DNA from: Saururus chinensis
Lineage: Eukaryota > Streptophyta > Magnoliopsida > Piperales > Saururaceae
Assembly (NCBI GenBank): GCA_035235625.1
Contig: CP141144.1
Coordinates: 37,818,014-37,882,013, forward strand
DNA: 64,000 nt
Direction of reading: 5' to 3'
This document shows, one piece after another, positions 15,670-26,595 of this stretch. Position 1 is the stretch's first letter. Each line of letters begins with the position of its first letter. The translations under genes and the position numbers were made by a program. The notes beneath the pieces are model-generated. The model made no database searches. It was not told the DNA's origin and was given only the letters and a program-made list of their open reading frames with translations.

Positions 15670-16862
15670 CTTATATAGGGCTGCTTTGGAAACCCGGAAC
15701 TGACCCAACCCGGATGAAAACGAGCCGAAATTAACCCAGTTTGGGTCATCTCAGGTCCTTTTTTCGGTCGGGTCCTCTCCCTTCCCTTGGCCACCGCTTT
15801 TCTTCTTCATTAGGTATATTCATGGGCGTGTGACCCATTAGGACTAAGTTTGAAACTTAATTATCGTTAAGTCCCGACCATTACAATTTGACTAATAAGT
15901 AATTGAAGTCTATGTAACTTTTAAAAATCCTAAAATACCCTTCTCTTTCTTCACATTGAATTCCAAATTTAAGGCTTTAACCACCCAAATTTGGGACTAC
16001 GCGCTATTTTCTCCTGACCAAAACCAAAGCTCCAGTGATTTGAAGCTTCGTTCTGGCAATTTCATGTTCCTCTGATCCATTGCTTGTTGTCTTCCTCACT
16101 GATTATTGCTGCTCCTAGGACCCCCACCGAGCTTGTCGACGGTGTCCACCTTCTCTAACAATACCACGAGGATTCCTCCACCTCCTTGCCTTCGGCCTCC
16201 TTCCCTCCCCGACCCAGCAGAGAAACTCCAACTAAGACGCCACTTCCATTTTCCCCGGTACTTTACCTTCTGAAACCCCTTCTTGCCCATCTTTGACAAA
16301 ATTGATACGTTGTTTAAATTTCTAGCAAAGTGATTCGTTTCCTTAGTCGATTTGGGGTTATTCTTTCTTGTAGTTTGAATTTGTTGTAGTTTGATTCGTT
16401 TTCTTTCATGCAATTTAGGGTTCTCTTCCTTGCTTTTTGAATTTCCAATAATGCAGGATTCGAACATCAATCACCGTAAGGTGAGTTTTTTGTACCTATA
16501 CGAGGATGTTCGGTAAACGGTAATTAGACATAAGGTGGAGACGCTAAAATTGGATAGATTTGATTGAACTCCACATTAGAGGGAGGTGAAAAGGGAACTT
16601 CCTCATTTTCTCCATCTCACCCATCTGTTGGTTGATTGAAAAGACAAGTTACCCTCCCCCCCCCCCGAGTCATGCAATACAAACATTTGATTTCTTTATG
16701 AATGAGAAACTTAAGCAAATTTGATGTACCTATCCTTAGTCAGATTCTTTACAACAACAAAAAAATGACTCCACCGAATGACATGAAAACAAATGAAAAA
16801 AATGATGGTTTTTTCTATACATGAAATTAAATTATAATTTTTTTGTTCCATATATAAGGTCA

Positions 16863-17260
16863 AAGTATAAATTTATTGTTCCATGTATGTGTACAGAGTA
16901 TAAATTTATTATTCCATATATGTGTACAGAGAATAAATTTATTGTTCCATATATAAGTTAGAGTATAAATTTATTATTCTATATATGTGAATAGAGTATA
17001 AATTTATTTTTCTATATACGAAATTCAAGTATAATTTTGATGTTCCTTATATGTGAACAGAGTATATATTTGTTGTTCTCTTTTGTGGTTGATGTAAACA
17101 ACAGAGTATATATTTATTGTTCTTTTTTGTGGTGAATGTAAACAATAGAGTATATATTTACTTTTCTGTGAATGTAATTATAATATAAATTGATTGTCAT
17201 TTATATGTGATTTATGCCTTCAATGGAGTATGAATTGATTGTTCCTCCTTTGTTTAAGGA
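16863..17260. repeat. Minisatellite of about 33 bp, GTATAAATTTATTGTTCC type
   Basis: Copies of AGAGTATAAATTTATTGTTC start at 16864, 16897, about 16930 and about 16961, and continue with drift to about 17240. The array lies just before the mobile-domain-like gene and is closely matched by the array at 23560-23945 in the same orientation. Each unit is rich in TATAAA-like strings. Confidence 0.85.
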
Positions 17261-17303
17261 ATATTAATCTAAACACTTTTATATCTATTTTTTGTGATTT
17301 CAG

Positions 17304-18360
17304 ACATGGTTCAATATAGATCCAATCTTATTTCAATGTGGCGGTTGTTCAATAAGTATAAAGGTCTGTTTGGAGATGAGACTAGAGAGATTTTAAGAGA
17401 GACTCCTTTTTGGGGAATTTTTAGTGTATTTTTAAATAAAAATTTAAAATATAACGAGGTTACAAAGGTTGATGAACATATCTGGGATGTCTTGGGTATG
17501 TATGAAGTAGATAGGGGTAGATTTAGGCTAGGCACGAAGTTAGTACAATTAACTTCAAAAGACATTTCTCTTATTTTTGGTATACCAATGGGTGAGGTAA
17601 CTATTACTTTTAGTGAGAAGAGGAAAAGAAATACAGATTTTGTAAATAGGTGGCTTAGGGAAGTCAAGTCATTAGATAAACCATCTTTAGAAACAGTTTA
17701 AGAAATTATAAGAATAGATGGCCAAAATGAAACAGAGGCTTGGTGCGACTTTTATGCCTTTATGCATGTGTGACTTTGCTGTTCCCTACAAAGGGAACAT
17801 CTATTCCATGGGGGGTTCTCAAAATATGTTGAAAATATACAAGATATGCAGACATATGCATGGCCAAGGGCAATCAAAGTTAATCTCATGCATACAATTG
17901 ATTTACATGGAAAATCCGAGCATGTCACAAGGTGCACTATGACACTTTTGGTAAGAATAACATCTCTATCCTTCTCAATACACTTTTATGTTTTTAGTTG
18001 TTAACATATGGCTTGCTTTGTAGTATTGGATATGTGAACACTCCACTATTATTCAAAGGAAGGACCACAATGTGTCAGTCCCTAGATTGATAAAGTGGAG
18101 CATGACAAATCTCTCAAAATCATTTGGCCAATTGACTGCTTTGACAGATGAAATGGTAATGTTTGTTGATTGATAGTAAAAATTTGAATTATTGGTTTTT
18201 ACAAAATTAACAAAATATTGTAATCTTCAATACAGGTTAATGATGGTAAGTTGAAGATGACAAATGAAGAAAAATAATTTTTTGCATTTTATGGGAGAGA
18301 AGAAGAGACCGATGAGGAAGTGGAGGTTGAACCATTGATTCAACCTGGAGGGCAAGAGTA
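17304..18360 (+). pseudogene. Plant-mobile-domain-like accessory gene of the MULE, broken
   Basis: The main exon (ATG near 17306, reading to 17699) follows a good splice acceptor (TTTGTGATTTCAG). It contains FRLGTKLVQLTSKDISLIFGIP in two overlapping short runs, which resembles the opening of the plant mobile domain found in transposon-linked proteins of plants. Further similarity follows near 17830-17900 (YVENIQDMQTYAWPRAI) and 18030-18240 (WICEHST, VPRLIKW). An in-frame stop follows the codon for Val at 17699, and the later pieces lie in different frames or exons. In other plant MULEs such genes accompany the transposase, and their role is unclear. Assignment rests on remembered motif patterns. 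Confidence 0.5.
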
Positions 18361-18409
18361 AGCAGGGAATTTTGGTAATAGTATAAATTTACTATTTCAT
18401 TGTTGATAT

Positions 18410-18690
18410 AATTATAAACTAACATCTCAAGGTATAAGTGTATAATATTGTATATAATATCAGAGTATAAATTTATTGTTCTGTGTATGATATTATTATT
18501 GTTTGATAGCCTAAGCATTAAATTAGAGTATAAATTTACTATAGTACTATTTTTATTATCTTCATTTCCCAAACATATAAATTTGTTATTCTATTACTTA
18601 CACATATAAATAACATAGTATATCTTTACTATTCTGTAATTATAGTATAAATTAATTATGATTTATATATGATCTCTGCCTTCAATAGAG
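18410..18690. repeat. Second copy of the GTATAAATTTA minisatellite, short and diverged
   Basis: AGAGTATAAATTTATTGTTC and similar strings recur between 18468 and 18690. It follows the 3' end of the mobile-domain-like gene. Order is less regular than in the arrays at 16863 and 23560. Confidence 0.6.
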
Positions 18691-18783
18691 TATAAATTGA
18701 CTGTTATGATGATATATTTACCTTTTCTTTTGACTAAGCATAATATAAACTACGCATGTAAATATCTTGATAACAAAAATTTA

Positions 18784-18863
18784 GAGAAAATTCTCACCAG
18801 AACCCCAAAATACCTATGATTTCCCATTAGGTCCTCTTTGAAAATTAAATTCTTAATTTTAAA
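18784..18863. repeat. MULE terminal inverted repeat, internal extra copy
   Basis: About 80 bp starting GAGAAAATTCTCACC matches the reverse complement of 25416-25494 almost base for base. Shared landmarks are AGAACCCCAAAATACCTAT, TTTCCCATTAGGTCCT and TTTGAAAATTAAATTCTT. It is better preserved than the putative left terminus at 15823. It may mark a second MULE nested in or fused to the first, or it may be the true left end. The flanking 9 bases do not match well. Confidence 0.75.
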
Positions 18864-20214
18864 TTTCTGGTTTTTATTATATTGTGGTGAATGTCGAGGG
18901 TAGTTGTTCTTTTGTGTTCAGTACATAGGAAACAAGCCCTAACAATATTGTGGTTGCACTTGATTTTCTTAATCCCTGGACAGTTTTCAGCTTTTCAGAA
19001 CTACAAATTGATTAATCCTCACTTTCATCTTCTCAAATTTTACCTTTTTCTAATTTGCTAATACGCTAGTTTTCTTTGTTGTAAGAAGCTTATTCAATAA
19101 ATCCTTTAGTACCTACTGGCAGTAAATTGATCAGAGAATAAATTATTTGTCATTCTGGATAAGTTTAAACCTTTCTAGGCTTCCTGGAAGGAAGCAACAT
19201 ATGAGTCGGTATGTGGGATCAGATGCTTGTACATGGACAATGAAAATATGTTTGGATGGATGTCATTTATAGCAATGTGATGTTGATTATAGAATTAAAT
19301 CATTTTTCTTCCTTGAGATGACTGTCATGTCTTGTGCCTAAGTGTGACATTTGTATATGCAAGAGCAACTTAGATGACCGTCCAGAAGCCTCTTGTGGTG
19401 TATCACATAGGGGAATGATTCAAGTGTAGAAGCCAACCTGGTGTGAAAACTAATTTTGTGGTGTAAAATGTATTTTCTAGCAAATGACTTCAAGATGAAA
19501 TTGTTATAGCAACCATTTGCTAACACATATGGGGCTATCAGCCCATCAGGAACCATTTTATTCGAAAACCTATTCAAAGCATTATCGTTTCTTTAATTTA
19601 CATTTTTTTCTCTCAAAAAAGCATTATTTAGTCATATATCTAAATAAATGTTTTTGGAACATTATATGAAGATTGGTTGATGCAACATTGATACAAGTGA
19701 ATGAGTCCTTTTGAAAAAATAAAGAAAAGGTAAAGTGAAAAAGCATTTTCTTCCAAAAAATATGTGAATGAAATATTTGCCTCAAAAGTGTGACTGAAGT
19801 ACATGGTGTTGGGTAGCATTTCTTTTTCTTGAAGAGTTTCAAAGAGTCCAAGGAAGAGTAGGTTTGGACAGCCTAAAATATGTGGTGACTTTTAAATAAG
19901 GTTGGGTCTCTTATACTAGTAATTTGATTAAATGATTGACAAACTTTTAGCATTATGATATGTTAAGGCATGGAGGCAATTTTGCATGGCATGTCACGAC
20001 CAAAAGAATCATATCCTCATGTGCCTTTGTAGCATGTGTCTCCATATCAACAAAAAAAACCATATGCTATATATGTTAGGTTTACCATATCGGTTGTCAA
20101 AATAATCATGGCTGCTGGTTTTAGGGTATACCCATAAAAATAAAAATTGGCTAAGGGAGTACCACAAACTTGGCCTTTACATAATTTTTTTTAACACCTA
20201 ACTTCATGATGAAA

Positions 20215-20715
20215 TTATAATCGTGTGAATTATAGTACATTTATACTATGATTCTAACATAGTATAATTTTACTGTGGTATATGACTCTAAGGCATGACC
20301 TTTCAATATGAAATCAGAACAGAGTATAAATTTACTGTGGTACATGAATTTTCAATATAAAAAGAATTTACAGCAATATGAATTTACTGTACAGCATGAC
20401 CTTTCAATATGAAATCAAAACATATTATAAATTTACTGTGGTACGTGACTTTTCAATATAAAAAGAATTTACAACAGTATGAATTTACTATAAGGCATGA
20501 CCTTTTAATATGAAATCAGAAAAGAGTATAAATATACTGTGGTACATGACTTTTCAATATGAAGAGAATTTACAATAGTATAAATTTACTTAAGGCATGA
20601 CCTTTTAATATGAAATCAGAACAGAGTATAAATTTACTGTGGTACATGACTTTTCAATATGAAATCGTAAAGTGAATTAGAGTAGATTTATACTGTGATC
20701 CTGACAAAGTAAAAA
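20215..20715. repeat. Tandem repeat of about 100 bp inside the MULE
   Basis: CATGACCTTTYAATATGAAATC recurs near 20295, 20398, 20497 and 20597, interleaved with AGAGTATAAATTTACTGTGG and TACATGACTTTTCAATAT. It lies just past the 3' end of the transposase gene. The core TATAAATTTACTG ties it to the 33-bp arrays elsewhere in the element. Confidence 0.8.
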
Positions 20716-20879
20716 TTTACTGTAACACTAAATTAATGGTTTAGTATAGGAAGGGAAACTAAAATGCCAACTAAGCAATGCCTTTTGAATATTAAATTAT
20801 AATTTTCATATAAAAAATTAAAATTCTCTATTCCTAAAACAAAATAATAAAAAATATTTATATATGAGGGACTACAAAG

Positions 20880-23220
20880 CCTCTTTACATGATTTTTTGT
20901 TGTGGTGACTAAGTTTACCACATCAACCACATTTAATTTTTCTTTTTATTTTCTCACCAAAAGAAGGAATCCTCTTCTTCTTGGGCCTCCCAGGTTGCCT
21001 TCTTGTTAATGGTGGCAATACTAAATTTTCTTCATCTGACTTTTCAAAAGTAGGAATAGGATTGATCGGCTGAGAGTAAGAGTTTTCAAAAAACTCTTTT
21101 GTAAAGTACTCATCACAATAAGAATGAGGATCTTTTCCACTCTTCATCAACGCAGCAATTGCATGTGAGCATGGAAAACTATTTATTTGCCAATGAAAAA
21201 ATGAGCACTGATGAGTTTCAATATTCACATATGCAGATGGGGTTGACATAACTTCATACACATTTGGAGAAGAACCAACCACCACCCAAGTGATGCAAGT
21301 ATTGATATTATCAGACAATTTTTCTCCATTATTGGACAAAGAACACTTGTCCAATTGCTTGCCTGATTACTATGCTCCATCATCATATTCATAATTTTGA
21401 CCCTTATAGAATCAATCATCTTCATAATTGGTAAGTGTCTTTCATAATTGATCCATGAATTGAAGCTTTCTACAACATTTGAAGACAAATCACCATAACG
21501 CTTACCCTTGAAGTAAGCATTTGTCTAATTTTTATCAGGAATATTTTCAAAGAAACTAATAACTTGTTGACCACTCTCTATTTTTAGCTCCTCCAATTTC
21601 TTATGAAACAATGTTGGTGTTGTTACATTTTCACACTCTATTAGCATAAAATCCATTTTGTTACGAACATGGCTGGTCCTTTCTCTCAAACAATTCGTCA
21701 AATTTGTTCTCTGGTGATATAATCAATAGACATGTGGAAAATAAGGGAACACTTGTGTCATTCCTTCAACAAGTCCCTTGTTTCGATCTGAAACAATAGT
21801 TAGCTGACGAGAATGATACAATATTTTCTTCAATTCTTCAAGTAACCATCTCCAATTATTTAAATTCTCATAAACAGCAATATCATATGTCAGTGGGAAA
21901 ATGCCTAATTAAATAGACAAAAAAATATAACATCAAGAGCATGAAAAAATGATCTACTTTAGAAAAGAATAAAATTAGACTCTATAGCAAAAAAATAAAA
22001 AATAACAATTAAAGCAAAGTATATTGAGAAATATACTAATAACAAATAACATATAGAATGAAAAATATATAAACAAACTCTCTAGAATAAGAGAATTTTT
22101 TTTTACCTTGGTTACCATTTTTACCAGTAACAGCCAACAAATGTCCTTTATAATGACCATTCAAATGAGTACCACCCAAGAATCAAATTGGGTGACAATA
22201 CTCAAATCCAAAAATTTATGCAGAAAAGGACACAAATACCCTTCTAAAAAGTAAATTCAGATCATTAATATCCAATACTACATGACTACCAGTGTTAATA
22301 TTTAAAATAGTCCCGGCGTACTAATGAAGATCATTGTAAGATGTTGAATGATCACCATAGACCTGATTTTAATCCTTTTGTACACTCTTCCAAACAACTT
22401 TATACGAAATATCCACACCATAATTAGTGTTGAATTCAACCACCACATCAATTGGGCGAGTAAGGGGATTGTTCACAACCTGGCTCAACAACTCATTAGA
22501 AACAATCTTAGTGATCATCCTCAAGTTCTTCTTTGTTTGCACAGCAAAACCATATGTAAGAATAGTGTTTAGATTAAGAATATAGACAAAATTATTTCAA
22601 TTATCTTTCCTTCCATGAACTTGTCATTCACATCCAGTGGATTCCTTGAATTTACATTCTGCAATCACTTTATTTGAATCATTTTTTACATACTTAAACT
22701 GGAAGCCAACTTGAATAGCATAGTGACACAATTTATGCCTGAACTCTTGGACTTCTCTAACAAACTTTTGCCCAACATGACTTATTTCCTTAGACCAAGT
22801 TTTAGTCATAAGCGTTGAATCTTCATGTGAGGAGGAAGAAAGAGCAAAGTTAGTCACCTCATCAAACACACTGCCATCAATACTTTAAATATTACTACTT
22901 GACAAATGATTACTAAAACTGGGTTGGCAACCAATGGACACATCACTAGAAATTGAAATATCCGTAACGGAAACATCAATAGTCTTAACTCCAAGATTGG
23001 AAGCAAGTAAGAATAAATTTTCCACGTCAACATCATTGTGAATATTACAACATGTATGGCCTGATAAAGAGTAAGACAACCTCACATTCTCAGCATTCAA
23101 GTTGCTCCATCATTAACAAATCATAAAAATCAAGCCCTTGTTTATGTTCTTGATATCAACCCGAATAACAGTAGTATTTGTAATGTATTTGCACATTAAA
23201 AGAAGAAATGAATCCATTAA
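20880..23220 (-). pseudogene. MURA-type MULE transposase, broken
   Basis: In order on the minus strand: a PB1-like N-terminus (22885-23100, VRLSYSLSGH and HNDVDVENLF), a MuDR DNA-binding region (22624-22869, FRHKLCHYAIQVGFQFKYVKN in part), the DDE core (YKGHLLAVTGKNGNQ near 22120; SDRNKGLVEG near 21790), NVVESFNSWI near 21470, and a SWIM zinc finger (CSFFHW, FPCSHAIAALMKSG near 21200-21130). A 202-bp intron with GT-AG ends (21905-22106) splits the DDE core in phase. The end is RRQPGRPKKKR and the start of a zinc knuckle, where a TGA near 20921 replaces an expected Arg codon. At least one other stop (near 21707) and a frame change near 21350 show that it is inactive. It would have cut and moved MULE copies. 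Confidence 0.85.
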
Positions 23221-23559
23221 CCTACATATAATGAAACATTAATCATTATAATGAAAAAGAAATATTTATAATAATATGGAGAACAACTATACAATTTTGA
23301 TTCATAATAAATTACAAAAATTGATAACAAGGGAAAAAAATCAATTCAATGATAGGCAATAAATAATGATTCCAATTGATGAGTTTAGTAAAATTATACT
23401 ATGTAATAGACAAAGTATGAAACTTATGAATTCTACATCATAATCATAATTATAATAAAATAGTACATTTATTCCAACAATTTCAAGTATAATGTAAGTG
23501 TAGGATTTGCTAAACTTAGGAATATTAATCTAAACAATTTTATTAATAAAGTATAATTT

Positions 23560-23945
23560 TTTTGTTCCATATATGTGGTTAGAGTATAAATTTTTTATTT
23601 CATATATGAGTACAGAGTATAAATTTATTATTCTATATATGTTTATAAAGTATAAATTTATTGTCCATATATAAGGTCAAAGTATAAATTTATTATTCCA
23701 TATATGTGAACAGTGTATAAATTTATTTTTCTATATGTAAAATTAAAGTATAATTTTGTTGTTCCATATATGTGAACAGAGTATATATTTACTATTATGT
23801 TCAGTGGTGGATGGAAACAATAGAATATATATTTACTGTTGTGCGAATGTAATTATAGTAGAAATTGATTGTTATTTATATGTGATTTCTGCCTTCAATA
23901 GAAAATGAATTGATTGTTCTTCCTTTGTTTAAGGAATAGTAATCT
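23560..23945. repeat. Minisatellite upstream of the MULE transposase, duplicate of the 16863 array
   Basis: GTATAAATTTATTGTTCC-type units repeat at about 33-35 bp. The array ends in the same tail as at 17211-17270 (TTCAATRGARWATGAATTGA, then CTTTGTTTAAGGAATA). It lies upstream of the transposase gene, so the two genes of the element have near-identical arrays at their 5' sides. Confidence 0.8.
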
Positions 23946-26158
23946 ACCTTAATAAGCAATTCTCAAAGAAAAACATAGGGTGAACAACACAAATGGCCAA
24001 TGTCATTACAAAGGAATATAATGATTAATTACAAGAAAGTAATATATAAAAGAGAAGAAAACTCTATAATATTGGCTAGAAAACTCACAAAGTGGCCTGC
24101 TAAGGCCAATCCCTCAATTTTCAAATAACATTGGAAGATTCTTACTTAATTTTCCAACTAGCTCTAATATCGGAAGAATATTTTTAGTGTAGTTGTCCCA
24201 AGGAACCTACTAATTCTTCACATTCCCTCGTATGTACTCTGCACAATAAGATGTATCTTAGTGAGTCCTTGGAACATAGAAGTCTAGAACATATATAGAA
24301 ATATCAACAAAAAATTAATTTCAATAACCAACATCTAATTAATTCATGACACCCAACACCAAGCACAATTCTAGATCTAAACAAGGCTAGAAAACAAATG
24401 ACCTAACAAATATTGAGATTCAACAACTAGGATTGCTAGAAAACAAATGATCTTTCTTTTAAAAAAAATAAGTAAATAATCTTATTATTGAGCACATTCA
24501 AAAAGAAGGTCACTAGTTTAGTATAACCTTGAAGGAGTTACACATGAAATATCTATAACATGAATCTTAACACCTCGTGCTTTTGTGTAGCAAATAACTA
24601 ATATTTCTAGTCATGCTTCGTTATAGATTTGACCAGTTTTTCTTCTATAACCATCACCTTAAGAAAAAAAAATTTCTTTGTCATGGAGTGATGCCAGATT
24701 AGGCAATCAGCAAAAAATTTGTCAATTGATTGCACACAGAGAAAAAAGAATATGTATCGCTAATCAGAGAAAACAAATGGAAAACAGAATTCAAAGTCTT
24801 ATCCTTCGCTTCACGGCTTGTCCCTTGGTGTGGTCAATACTCCATGTTGTCGAGCAGCGAAGCTTACACTTGTTCACTTATTATGATGATTCACCAAGGC
24901 CTCTTTCCTCATCCCTTTTCTGTTCATGGGTTCGGACCAAATCAACGAGACAAAACAGCACAAATCTGAGAAAAATCGAACGTATAAATCAAACTCAAGG
25001 GACATGAGATGCTCACCAAAAAATTCATTGTACGAAGTGTCAAAAAGCATGTGATGTCTGACAGAGGGTTTTGGAGAGGGTTCTGGAGAGGTTTCAGTCT
25101 TGAGATTGGAAGAAAAAGACGGAGGCGGAAAATGTGTAGATGGGGGAACAAGCTCCAGCGAATGAAATCATTTACATAGTTGAGGAGAATGCAGGAGAAG
25201 AGGACAATGGAGGAGACGCCAGTGGAAGAGGTGCCCGTTAAAGAGAATGCAGGAGAAGAGAAGGAGGGAGGAGACACCGGTGGAAGAGGCGCCCGGTGGC
25301 GGGAGGAGCAGTTATAAAAGTGTGGGCATAAGGATGATAAGAAGAGGGGTATTTTAGGTATAATAAAACTAAATTAGTGGGATTAGGGCTTTTTAAGAAT
25401 AAGTAAAAACAAAATTTTAAATGAAGAATTTAATTTTCAAATAGGACCTAATGGGAAATAATAGGTATTTTGGGGTTCTGGTGAGAATTTTCCCTATATT
25501 TCATCTACATCCTGTGATCGGCTCCATCTCTCCTCATCCTTCAGCAGCACCAAAGACCAATTCCTCTCATCACCGGCATCACTGGCCAAGATCCTATCTT
25601 TTTGGTCAATAATTGCTACTGTGGTCCGGATATATTCTCCTCCATCAAACACTGCCAACCACTTCCTCCTTCACCTCACATCACCGTCGGCGACATTGTG
25701 CCATTTGCAGGTATGAGGTACCTATTGGTTTCTATTTTTGGGCCTCTTTGATTTTTGTATTTTTATTGTATGCCACTAGTCCAACCGTCCGAAGAATCTA
25801 AGTAAAGTTGGAGAATGGATTGTCCCTTTGACAAAAGGAAGCAGATTGTCCCTCCATTCTCTAACTTTACTGATATGAGAACTCTTTCTGTAATATTGTT
25901 CAATGTTCTTTGAACTTTGATGCATTATCTTTGCCGTAATTGTTGTCTTCCTATTGTATACACAATATTCATTTTGTTTTGCCTAGAAGGTTGTCTTTGG
26001 GTTGTCTATTTTTTTTGGATTTTACCATTATTTTATTTATTTTAGTTTACATGTTCATGGATCTGTTTATCCTAAAAAATTCGGGTATTTAACTTCTAAC
26101 CCATCTAGTTCCTTGCCCTTTCTTCTAATTTTTAGCATTCTCTATACTGGGTTATCAG

Positions 26159-26595
26159 TGACTGACCCAGTAACCTGTGTTTTGTCAGCTTGCTTCCCTT
26201 GGTTTGTCATGGATATGTGATCTTTATTGCTTGATAATGATTTGGAGAATATGTGAAATCGATTTAAGTAAATGACTGACTTGTGTTTTGTCTGCTTACT
26301 TCCCTTAGTTTGTCATGGATATGTGATCTTTGTTGTTTGATATTAATTTGGAGAATATGTGAATTAAATTTCAGTAAGTGACTGACTTGTGTTTTGTCTA
26401 CTTCACTTTGTTTATCATGGATATGTGATCTTTGTTGCTTGATATTAATTCTGAGAATATGTGAATTCAATTTAGTAAGTGGTTGACTTGTGTTTTGTGT
26501 GCTTGCTTCCCTTCGTTTATCATGTATATGTGATCTTTGTTACTTGATATTAAATTATTGATTTGGAGAATATGTGAATTCAATTTCAATAATCA
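26159..26595. repeat. Four tandem copies of a 100-115 bp unit in the hAT 5' region
   Basis: Units begin TGACTGAC at 26159, 26273 and 26379 and as TGGTTGAC at 26480. Shared strings are CTTGTGTTTTGTCTGCTT, TCATGGATATGTGATCTTTG and GGAGAATATGTGAAT. The array lies between the MULE insertion and the first transposase exon. Confidence 0.85.

Follow-up and report, generated by a model that had tools for sequence, protein, structure and literature searches.

The element and its two facing genes

The window considered here is a 64 000-nucleotide stretch of the Saururus chinensis genome (assembly GCA_035235625.1, contig CP141144.1, positions 37,818,014 to 37,882,013 of the forward strand). It contains a Mutator-like element (MULE) in which a mudrA-type transposase gene on the minus strand faces a second gene on the plus strand, both of them broken (Table 1). 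An earlier sequence-only reading of this stretch had proposed a MULE with two convergent genes, and this layout is borne out: the two genes lie in one element flanked by target-site duplications (TSDs). That reading also had the genes led from opposite termini, which holds for their direction and not for their nearness, as the start codon of the plus gene lies 1.5 kb from the left end and the transposase start lies 2.3 kb from the right end. Of the limits then given (15823-25494), the right one stands and the left one moves to 15824.

Copies of the element were sought in 516 Mb of genome (11 contigs). Ten longer copies were chosen for their matches to both halves of the element, and the layout they have in common is therefore partly a result of selection; full-length copies measure ~12.3 kb. 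Exact 9-bp duplications, as expected of a MULE (~9 bp), are present at the same two ends in seven of the ten; the exceptions are C10a (imprecise), C1b (none) and C10b (right end missing). In the window the left duplication TATATTCAT (9 bp) and the right duplication TATATTTCAT (10 bp) are near-identical, with a single inserted T on the right. Across copies the left end reads GGGYGYGTGACC in most cases and the right end finishes in GAGAATTTTC(C/T)C. With the window counted in, the 137-bp left-end query gave 40 matches (40 scored of 96 candidates) and the 135-bp right-end query also gave 40 (40 scored of 79), at least two of which are internal copies of the terminal inverted repeat (TIR). The two ends of the window copy form degenerate TIRs, a trait of VANDAL-type elements (alignment score of 51; maximum of 300 shuffles 48).

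The transposase of the window carries 11 stops in its aligned blocks, the first two of which are one exon that we split. It matches the Pfam domains DBD_Tnp_Mut (E = 2e-9) and SWIM (E = 1.3e-5), and pieces of the C4a copy match DBD_Tnp_Mut (3.6e-12), MULE (1.3e-11) and SWIM (1.7e-9), the domains expected of a mudrA-type protein. The plus gene of the window is a stump that retains blocks 1-3 with three stops; the edges of the deletion overlap at its junction, and at least 3 kb have gone, which in other copies bear exons 4-9. Each of the ten longer copies has nine aligned exon blocks, some of them damaged, and in these copies the two genes face each other, though with stops in the plus gene. The arrangement recurs in other members of the family.

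Exon 7 lies downstream on the same strand in 13 of the 16 long family exon-1 matches (57% identity or more), the window being among the three without it, and 11 of these 13 loci also have a transposase match (by hand comparison, with 20 of 362 transposase candidates scored). The ratio of nonsynonymous to synonymous differences (pN/pS), taken over every available copy pair, is 0.47 for exons 1-3 (55 pairs), 0.60 for exons 4 and 6 (45 pairs) and 0.68 for exons 7-9 (45 pairs), and 0.59 and 0.57 for the transposase (55 pairs each); these values can be biased by decay through deamination of methylated C, and single pairs reach 2.06. The frame-break filter (pN over 0.25) discarded no pair, and frame-shifted stretches (for example exon 1 of C3a and C11b) were kept, which raises pN. 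The retention of exon 7, the accompanying transposase matches and the pN/pS values below one in both genes argue that the convergent pair is beyond chance.

The same order is seen in diverged (sister) loci, in which 34 of the 45 exon-1 matches counted (170 or more residues, 27-43% identity) have exon 7 1-9 kb downstream on the same strand and one has another arrangement. Judged from these matches, the plus gene is a member of a large family. A long exon-1 match lies within 15 kb of the left end at 8 of the 40 scored left ends; on this count, many element copies have lost the plus gene.

Table 1. Features of the element, in positions of the window
Feature	Positions	Strand	Basis or remarks
Whole element, internally deleted broken MULE copy	15824-25494	.	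Left end common to 10 other copies, right end to 9 of those; TSDs
Left TSD TATATTCAT	15815-15823	.	Read by eye
Left terminus, GGGCGYGTGACC...	15824-15960	+	137-bp query matches elsewhere in genome
Motif array 1, four AGTATAAATTTAYT, 5' of plus gene	16864-17008	+	
Plus gene exon 1, plant mobile domain (PMD)/DUF1985-like in other copies, broken in window	17306-17947	+	Homology, block alignment
Plus gene exon 2	18024-18155	+	Block alignment
Plus gene exon 3, one stop	18236-18358	+	Block alignment
Motif array 2, three copies, corresponds to intron after exon 3	18380-18540	+	
Deletion junction	18604-18611	.	Alignment to C3a, C10b and C2a
Extra internal copy of right-end TIR, left-end orientation, between the two genes	18777-18866	+	93% complementary to 25412-25501; alignment score 155
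Motif array 3, three copies, transposase 3' side	20323-20638	+	
mudrA-type transposase pseudogene	20875-23217	-	Aligned blocks 23217-22375, 22362-22108, 21908-20875
Motif array 4, three copies, 5' of transposase	23616-23694	+	
Right terminus, inward reading GGGAAAATTCTCACC..., degenerate inverted partner of left end	25360-25494	-	135-bp query matches
Right TSD TATATTTCAT	25495-25504	.	Read by eye

One-strand motif arrays in the family and its sister

The window element contains 13 forward and no reverse occurrences of the motif AGTATAAATTTAYT, and the remaining 54 kb of the window contain none on either strand. Over the 11 copies, 241 forward 12-base cores were found versus five reverse cores; all 241 lie clear of the aligned coding blocks, which fill 33% of the length. 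The arrays occupy five kinds of site: the 5' side of the plus gene, the intron after exon 3, the introns from exon 4 to exon 7, the intergenic side and the 5' side of the transposase. Not all of these are occupied in every copy, and array size varies by copy (on the 5' side of the plus gene, for example, from 0 to 13 units). Genome-wide, the motif was found at 1424 places (734 + 690) versus 86 (34 + 52) for the reversed control, and paired motifs at 292 places (152 + 140) versus none (0 + 0). By hand count, 14 of the 18 array clusters listed (C1 and part of C2) coincide with listed family matches, and the motif is absent from six PMD or C48 loci of other kinds (L009-L012, L045 and L046). Arrays are also found where the gene is not: L043 (5.8 kb) retains 17 forward motifs although no exon of the plus gene could be found in it, and L044 has nine, with the plus gene reduced to a 28-residue remnant of exon 1.

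In Arabidopsis, VANC21 is described as binding YAGTATTAY, which forms same-orientation, high-density arrays in introns and in the intergenic and terminal non-coding DNA of VANDAL21, and VANC6 as using other motifs (PMC5735166). YAGTATTAY does not occur within the window element. Same-orientation arrays in non-coding DNA, concentrated in one family, are the pattern of VANC and KIU systems, and AGTATAAATTTAYT is accordingly put forward as a candidate target.

A sister family has its own version of the motif. The intron of the sister piece L047 (1.5 kb; ~50% identity in exon 7 and 41% in exon 1) contains TGTATAAATTTACT twice on the strand of the gene, and none of 2000 Markov shuffles gave two cores. 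Genome-wide, paired TGTATAAATTTACT has four occurrences (control 0), and in each case a sister exon 7 follows ~0.5 kb downstream. Compared with the family motif, the core is kept and the first base is shifted, at a protein identity of ~40-50%. Retention of the core in the intron despite change in about half of the protein, together with a shifted first base, is the pattern expected from co-divergence of a protein and its target. Sister exon-1 copies without stops are present at C7:25758784, C1:37496400, C11:1341447, C2:11607009 and other places; these may be younger, possibly active relatives.

Taken together, the ends, gene layout and arrays suggest that the element most likely belongs to a VANDAL/KIU-like family of MULEs that has a candidate anti-silencing target of its own in this motif, the window copy being a member that is dead and carries a deletion.

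The second protein and variant copies

A number of observations weigh against this assignment. All Pfam domain matches of the plus protein fall under the cut-offs. With exons 1-3 joined in four other copies, PMD was matched by C4a (E = 1.8e-5) and C10b (0.001) and not by C1a or C1c; DUF1985 was matched at ~0.003 by three of the four and not in the window, and the unrelated Sec1 matched the same four proteins at 0.0014-0.019, as well as DUF1985 did. The match of exons 7-9 to Peptidase_C48 (Ulp1) is weak, being found in two of five alignment members (best E = 0.00054; hhalign probability 1%), and VPg was matched by four of the five (best 0.0056). Searches of the PDB with exons 5-9, with the exon 7-9 profile and with the exon 1-3 profile returned nothing up to E = 10. 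The aligned blocks of the plus gene contain at least one stop in all 11 copies; the least damaged, C4a, has one plus-gene stop and one transposase stop, the latter where the first exon was split. The exon borders are our reading of the genomic sequence, the units of a tandem array are not independent observations, and four of the 18 listed array clusters match no listed family locus. The sister evidence comes from one locus that was read (L047) and three more that were placed, and the likeness to VANC is drawn from published descriptions rather than from VANC sequence.

The sequence-only reading had described the second gene as mobile-domain-like, at 17304-18360. The window stump matched no Pfam family at E <= 1, and the best PMD score in other copies (24.5 bits) does not reach the Pfam cut-off of 34.9 for PF10536; the stump is therefore ruled out as a genuine PMD gene. 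What survives of the description is the sub-threshold similarity in C4a and C10b, which has no counterpart in the window, C1a or C1c. On these profiles exons 1-3 show a borderline relationship to PMD and to DUF1985 alike. Exon 1 matched nothing in NCBIfam, and block 4 looks coiled-coil-like by eye. PMD-type frames are very abundant in the genome as a whole (2740 first-look candidates, 117 scored), many of them uniform frames of 241 or ~480-530 amino acids, an abundance for which a PMD carried by a retrotransposon would account.

For comparison with exons 7-9, the score is 4.5e-21 for a classical C48 protein from this genome. A KIU-type enzyme would have its catalytic Cys in D-C-G. The corresponding site, placed by eye using what we take to be the catalytic triad, reads D-D-S-G in seven of ten copies and D-D-S-D in three, and in the sister exon 7 the His that should precede Trp is missing as well, YQW standing in place of YHW. 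With Ser at the expected Cys in all ten copies and YQW in the sister, exons 7-9 are probably a degenerate Ulp1-like end that is not a protease, if the fold is that of Ulp1.

The internal TIR copy between the two genes is missing, wholly or in its outer part, in seven of the ten longer copies. Alignments restart in this region at 18837 in five copies and near 19355 in C11a and C11b, and C3a has an inverted duplication at the site. The internal copy may be the record of an older, transposase-only element. A separate nested MULE at 18784-25494 with its own TSD is not supported, as the nine bases before the internal TIR in the window differ from the right-hand duplication.

Other copies vary in length. 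C2a (C2:59367968-59386487) is swollen to 18.5 kb by inserts between the genes and C10b (C10:36848644-36864019) to 15.4 kb by one insert in the intron before exon 7. A ~2.4-kb element at C2:15739240-15741635 retains the two termini together with a motif array, and none of the listed exon matches falls within it; C10:32453809-32456206 and C7:7579035-7581416 equal it in end-to-end length, and a further class has ~5.7 kb between its ends (C11:3143663, C6:24477853 and C1:57519955). An open stretch between the two genes (L023 6274-6576 in C1a, and the same region of C4a) is possibly a captured host fragment; we take it to resemble a fragment of a transporter gene, for which Pfam gave no support, and three possible captured fragments matched no Pfam family up to E = 0.01. 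Immediately beyond the element, at 26173-26486, a 106-bp unit (family D4) is repeated three times in tandem.

An anti-silencing reading and its alternatives

Maize MuDR has two convergent genes, one of them a mudrA-type transposase, and long, matched TIRs. The element described here shares the gene arrangement; it differs in its degenerate TIRs and in its second gene, which is apparently not mudrB, as judged without a mudrB sequence or profile. Arabidopsis VANDAL21 and VANDAL6 share with it a mudrA-type transposase accompanied by a separate diverging gene, a short motif in same-orientation, size-variable non-coding arrays, and degenerate TIRs (PMC5735166, PMC10398659). DUF1985 is marked in VANC proteins (figure legend in PMC5735166), VANC is reported to compete with RNA-directed DNA methylation (PMC10398659), and a talk on the crystal structure of VANC21 is mentioned in PMC8756742. 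The differences are that the motif is AGTATAAATTTAYT rather than YAGTATTAY or AGTTGTCC/AGTTGTAC, that an Ulp1-like end is present here, and that no third gene was recognised, no sequence search having been aimed at VANB.

Vandals carrying KIU are described as having an Ulp1 domain and their own motifs, with credit to Sasaki 2022 (PMC13317346). In the KI-MULEs of Arabidopsis the ULP domain runs opposite to mudrA, the facing arrangement seen here, and ULP-bearing MULEs of either orientation are reported from melon, rice and grapevine (PMC2528002). The sequence-only reading had called the pairing of genes uncommon; this published account does not support that, Ulp1-type genes beside mudrA being already known in these four plants. 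In our family the Ulp1-like part scores only marginally. A further difference is the Ser at the expected C48 Cys, which was judged against the C48 triad rather than against published KIU sequences. The PMD-C found in MULEs of grasses and Amborella resembles our gene in its MULE context and through weak PMD similarity; there it has been captured as a transposase fusion, for which an anti-silencing role has been suggested (PMC5418596), whereas here it is a separate gene with an Ulp1-like end.

From the ends, the TSDs, the gene layout and exon blocks, the strand and placement of the arrays, their enrichment in the family and the sister counterpart, we infer, with modest confidence, that the window holds a dead, internally deleted VANDAL/KIU-like MULE, in whose full-length relatives a mudrA-type transposase faces a VANC/KIU-like gene, the protein of which would bind AGTATAAATTTAYT arrays and lift silencing.

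It is rather unlikely that the plus gene is instead a captured passenger, useless to the element, and that the arrays are inert minisatellites, rich in AT, that slippage has spread. Capture of gene fragments is described as frequent in MULEs (PMC2528002, PMC13317346), and the stops in 11 of 11 copies and the scarcity of exon-1 matches near left ends (8/40) would suit a passenger. Such a gene would not be expected to show pN/pS below one or to retain its architecture in 34 of 45 diverged loci, nor inert repeats to keep a motif core in the sister intron at ~40-50% protein identity and to lie nearly always on one strand over five kinds of site.

A role in transposition for the plus protein, as a mudrB-like helper, with the arrays as sub-terminal binding sites for the transposase or the helper, appears improbable. 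The convergent pair of MuDR and the large left-side array retained by L043 in the absence of plus-gene exons are consistent with such a role, but the arrays of the window are set back 1.0 kb and 1.8 kb from the left and right ends, respectively, full-length copies have them also in introns and between the genes, and the most similar published layout is that of anti-silencing genes in Arabidopsis (PMC5735166, PMC10398659). Capture of a true MAIL-type PMD that interferes with the host MAIL1/MAIN silencing pathway is very improbable: it could draw on the C4a match (1.8e-5) and on the anti-silencing role that Ikeda et al. speculate for MULE-borne PMD-C (PMC5418596), but the PMD similarity is under the Pfam cut-off and missing from two of the four full copies, the MULE PMDs described by those authors are transposase fusions rather than a separate convergent gene, and the C-terminal part and the arrays would be left unexplained.

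Under the VANDAL/KIU-like reading, the transposase would, by analogy with its family, recognise the two degenerate ends and move the element. The second protein would bind the one-way AGTATAAATTTAYT arrays 5' of both genes, in the introns of the plus gene and on the intergenic side; DNA methylation would then be removed and both genes could be expressed. The protein may also act in trans on gene-less copies that have arrays, and the window copy would be a passive target of this action. The suggestion of the sequence-only reading that the second gene is an anti-silencing partner fits the evidence, but by way of VANC/KIU-type elements and not of MAIL-type mobile-domain proteins. As a tentative extension, which may well not hold, the genome could hold two or more related MULE families, every one having a self-targeted anti-silencing protein and its own version of the motif (AGTATAAATTTAYT and TGTATAAATTTACT). 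The Ulp1-like end would be non-catalytic, so that anti-silencing would proceed through DNA binding and not through a protease, and the shift in the motif would be a snapshot of co-divergence.

Sequence-specific anti-silencing by transposons has so far been worked out in the VANDALs of Arabidopsis. A second genome now offers a candidate target motif derived from sequence, a sister variant of it and gene-less copies with arrays, and the co-evolution of an anti-silencing protein with its target becomes testable in a second lineage. Labels such as 'mobile-domain' or 'captured protease' on MULE genes of this kind may mask anti-silencing factors.

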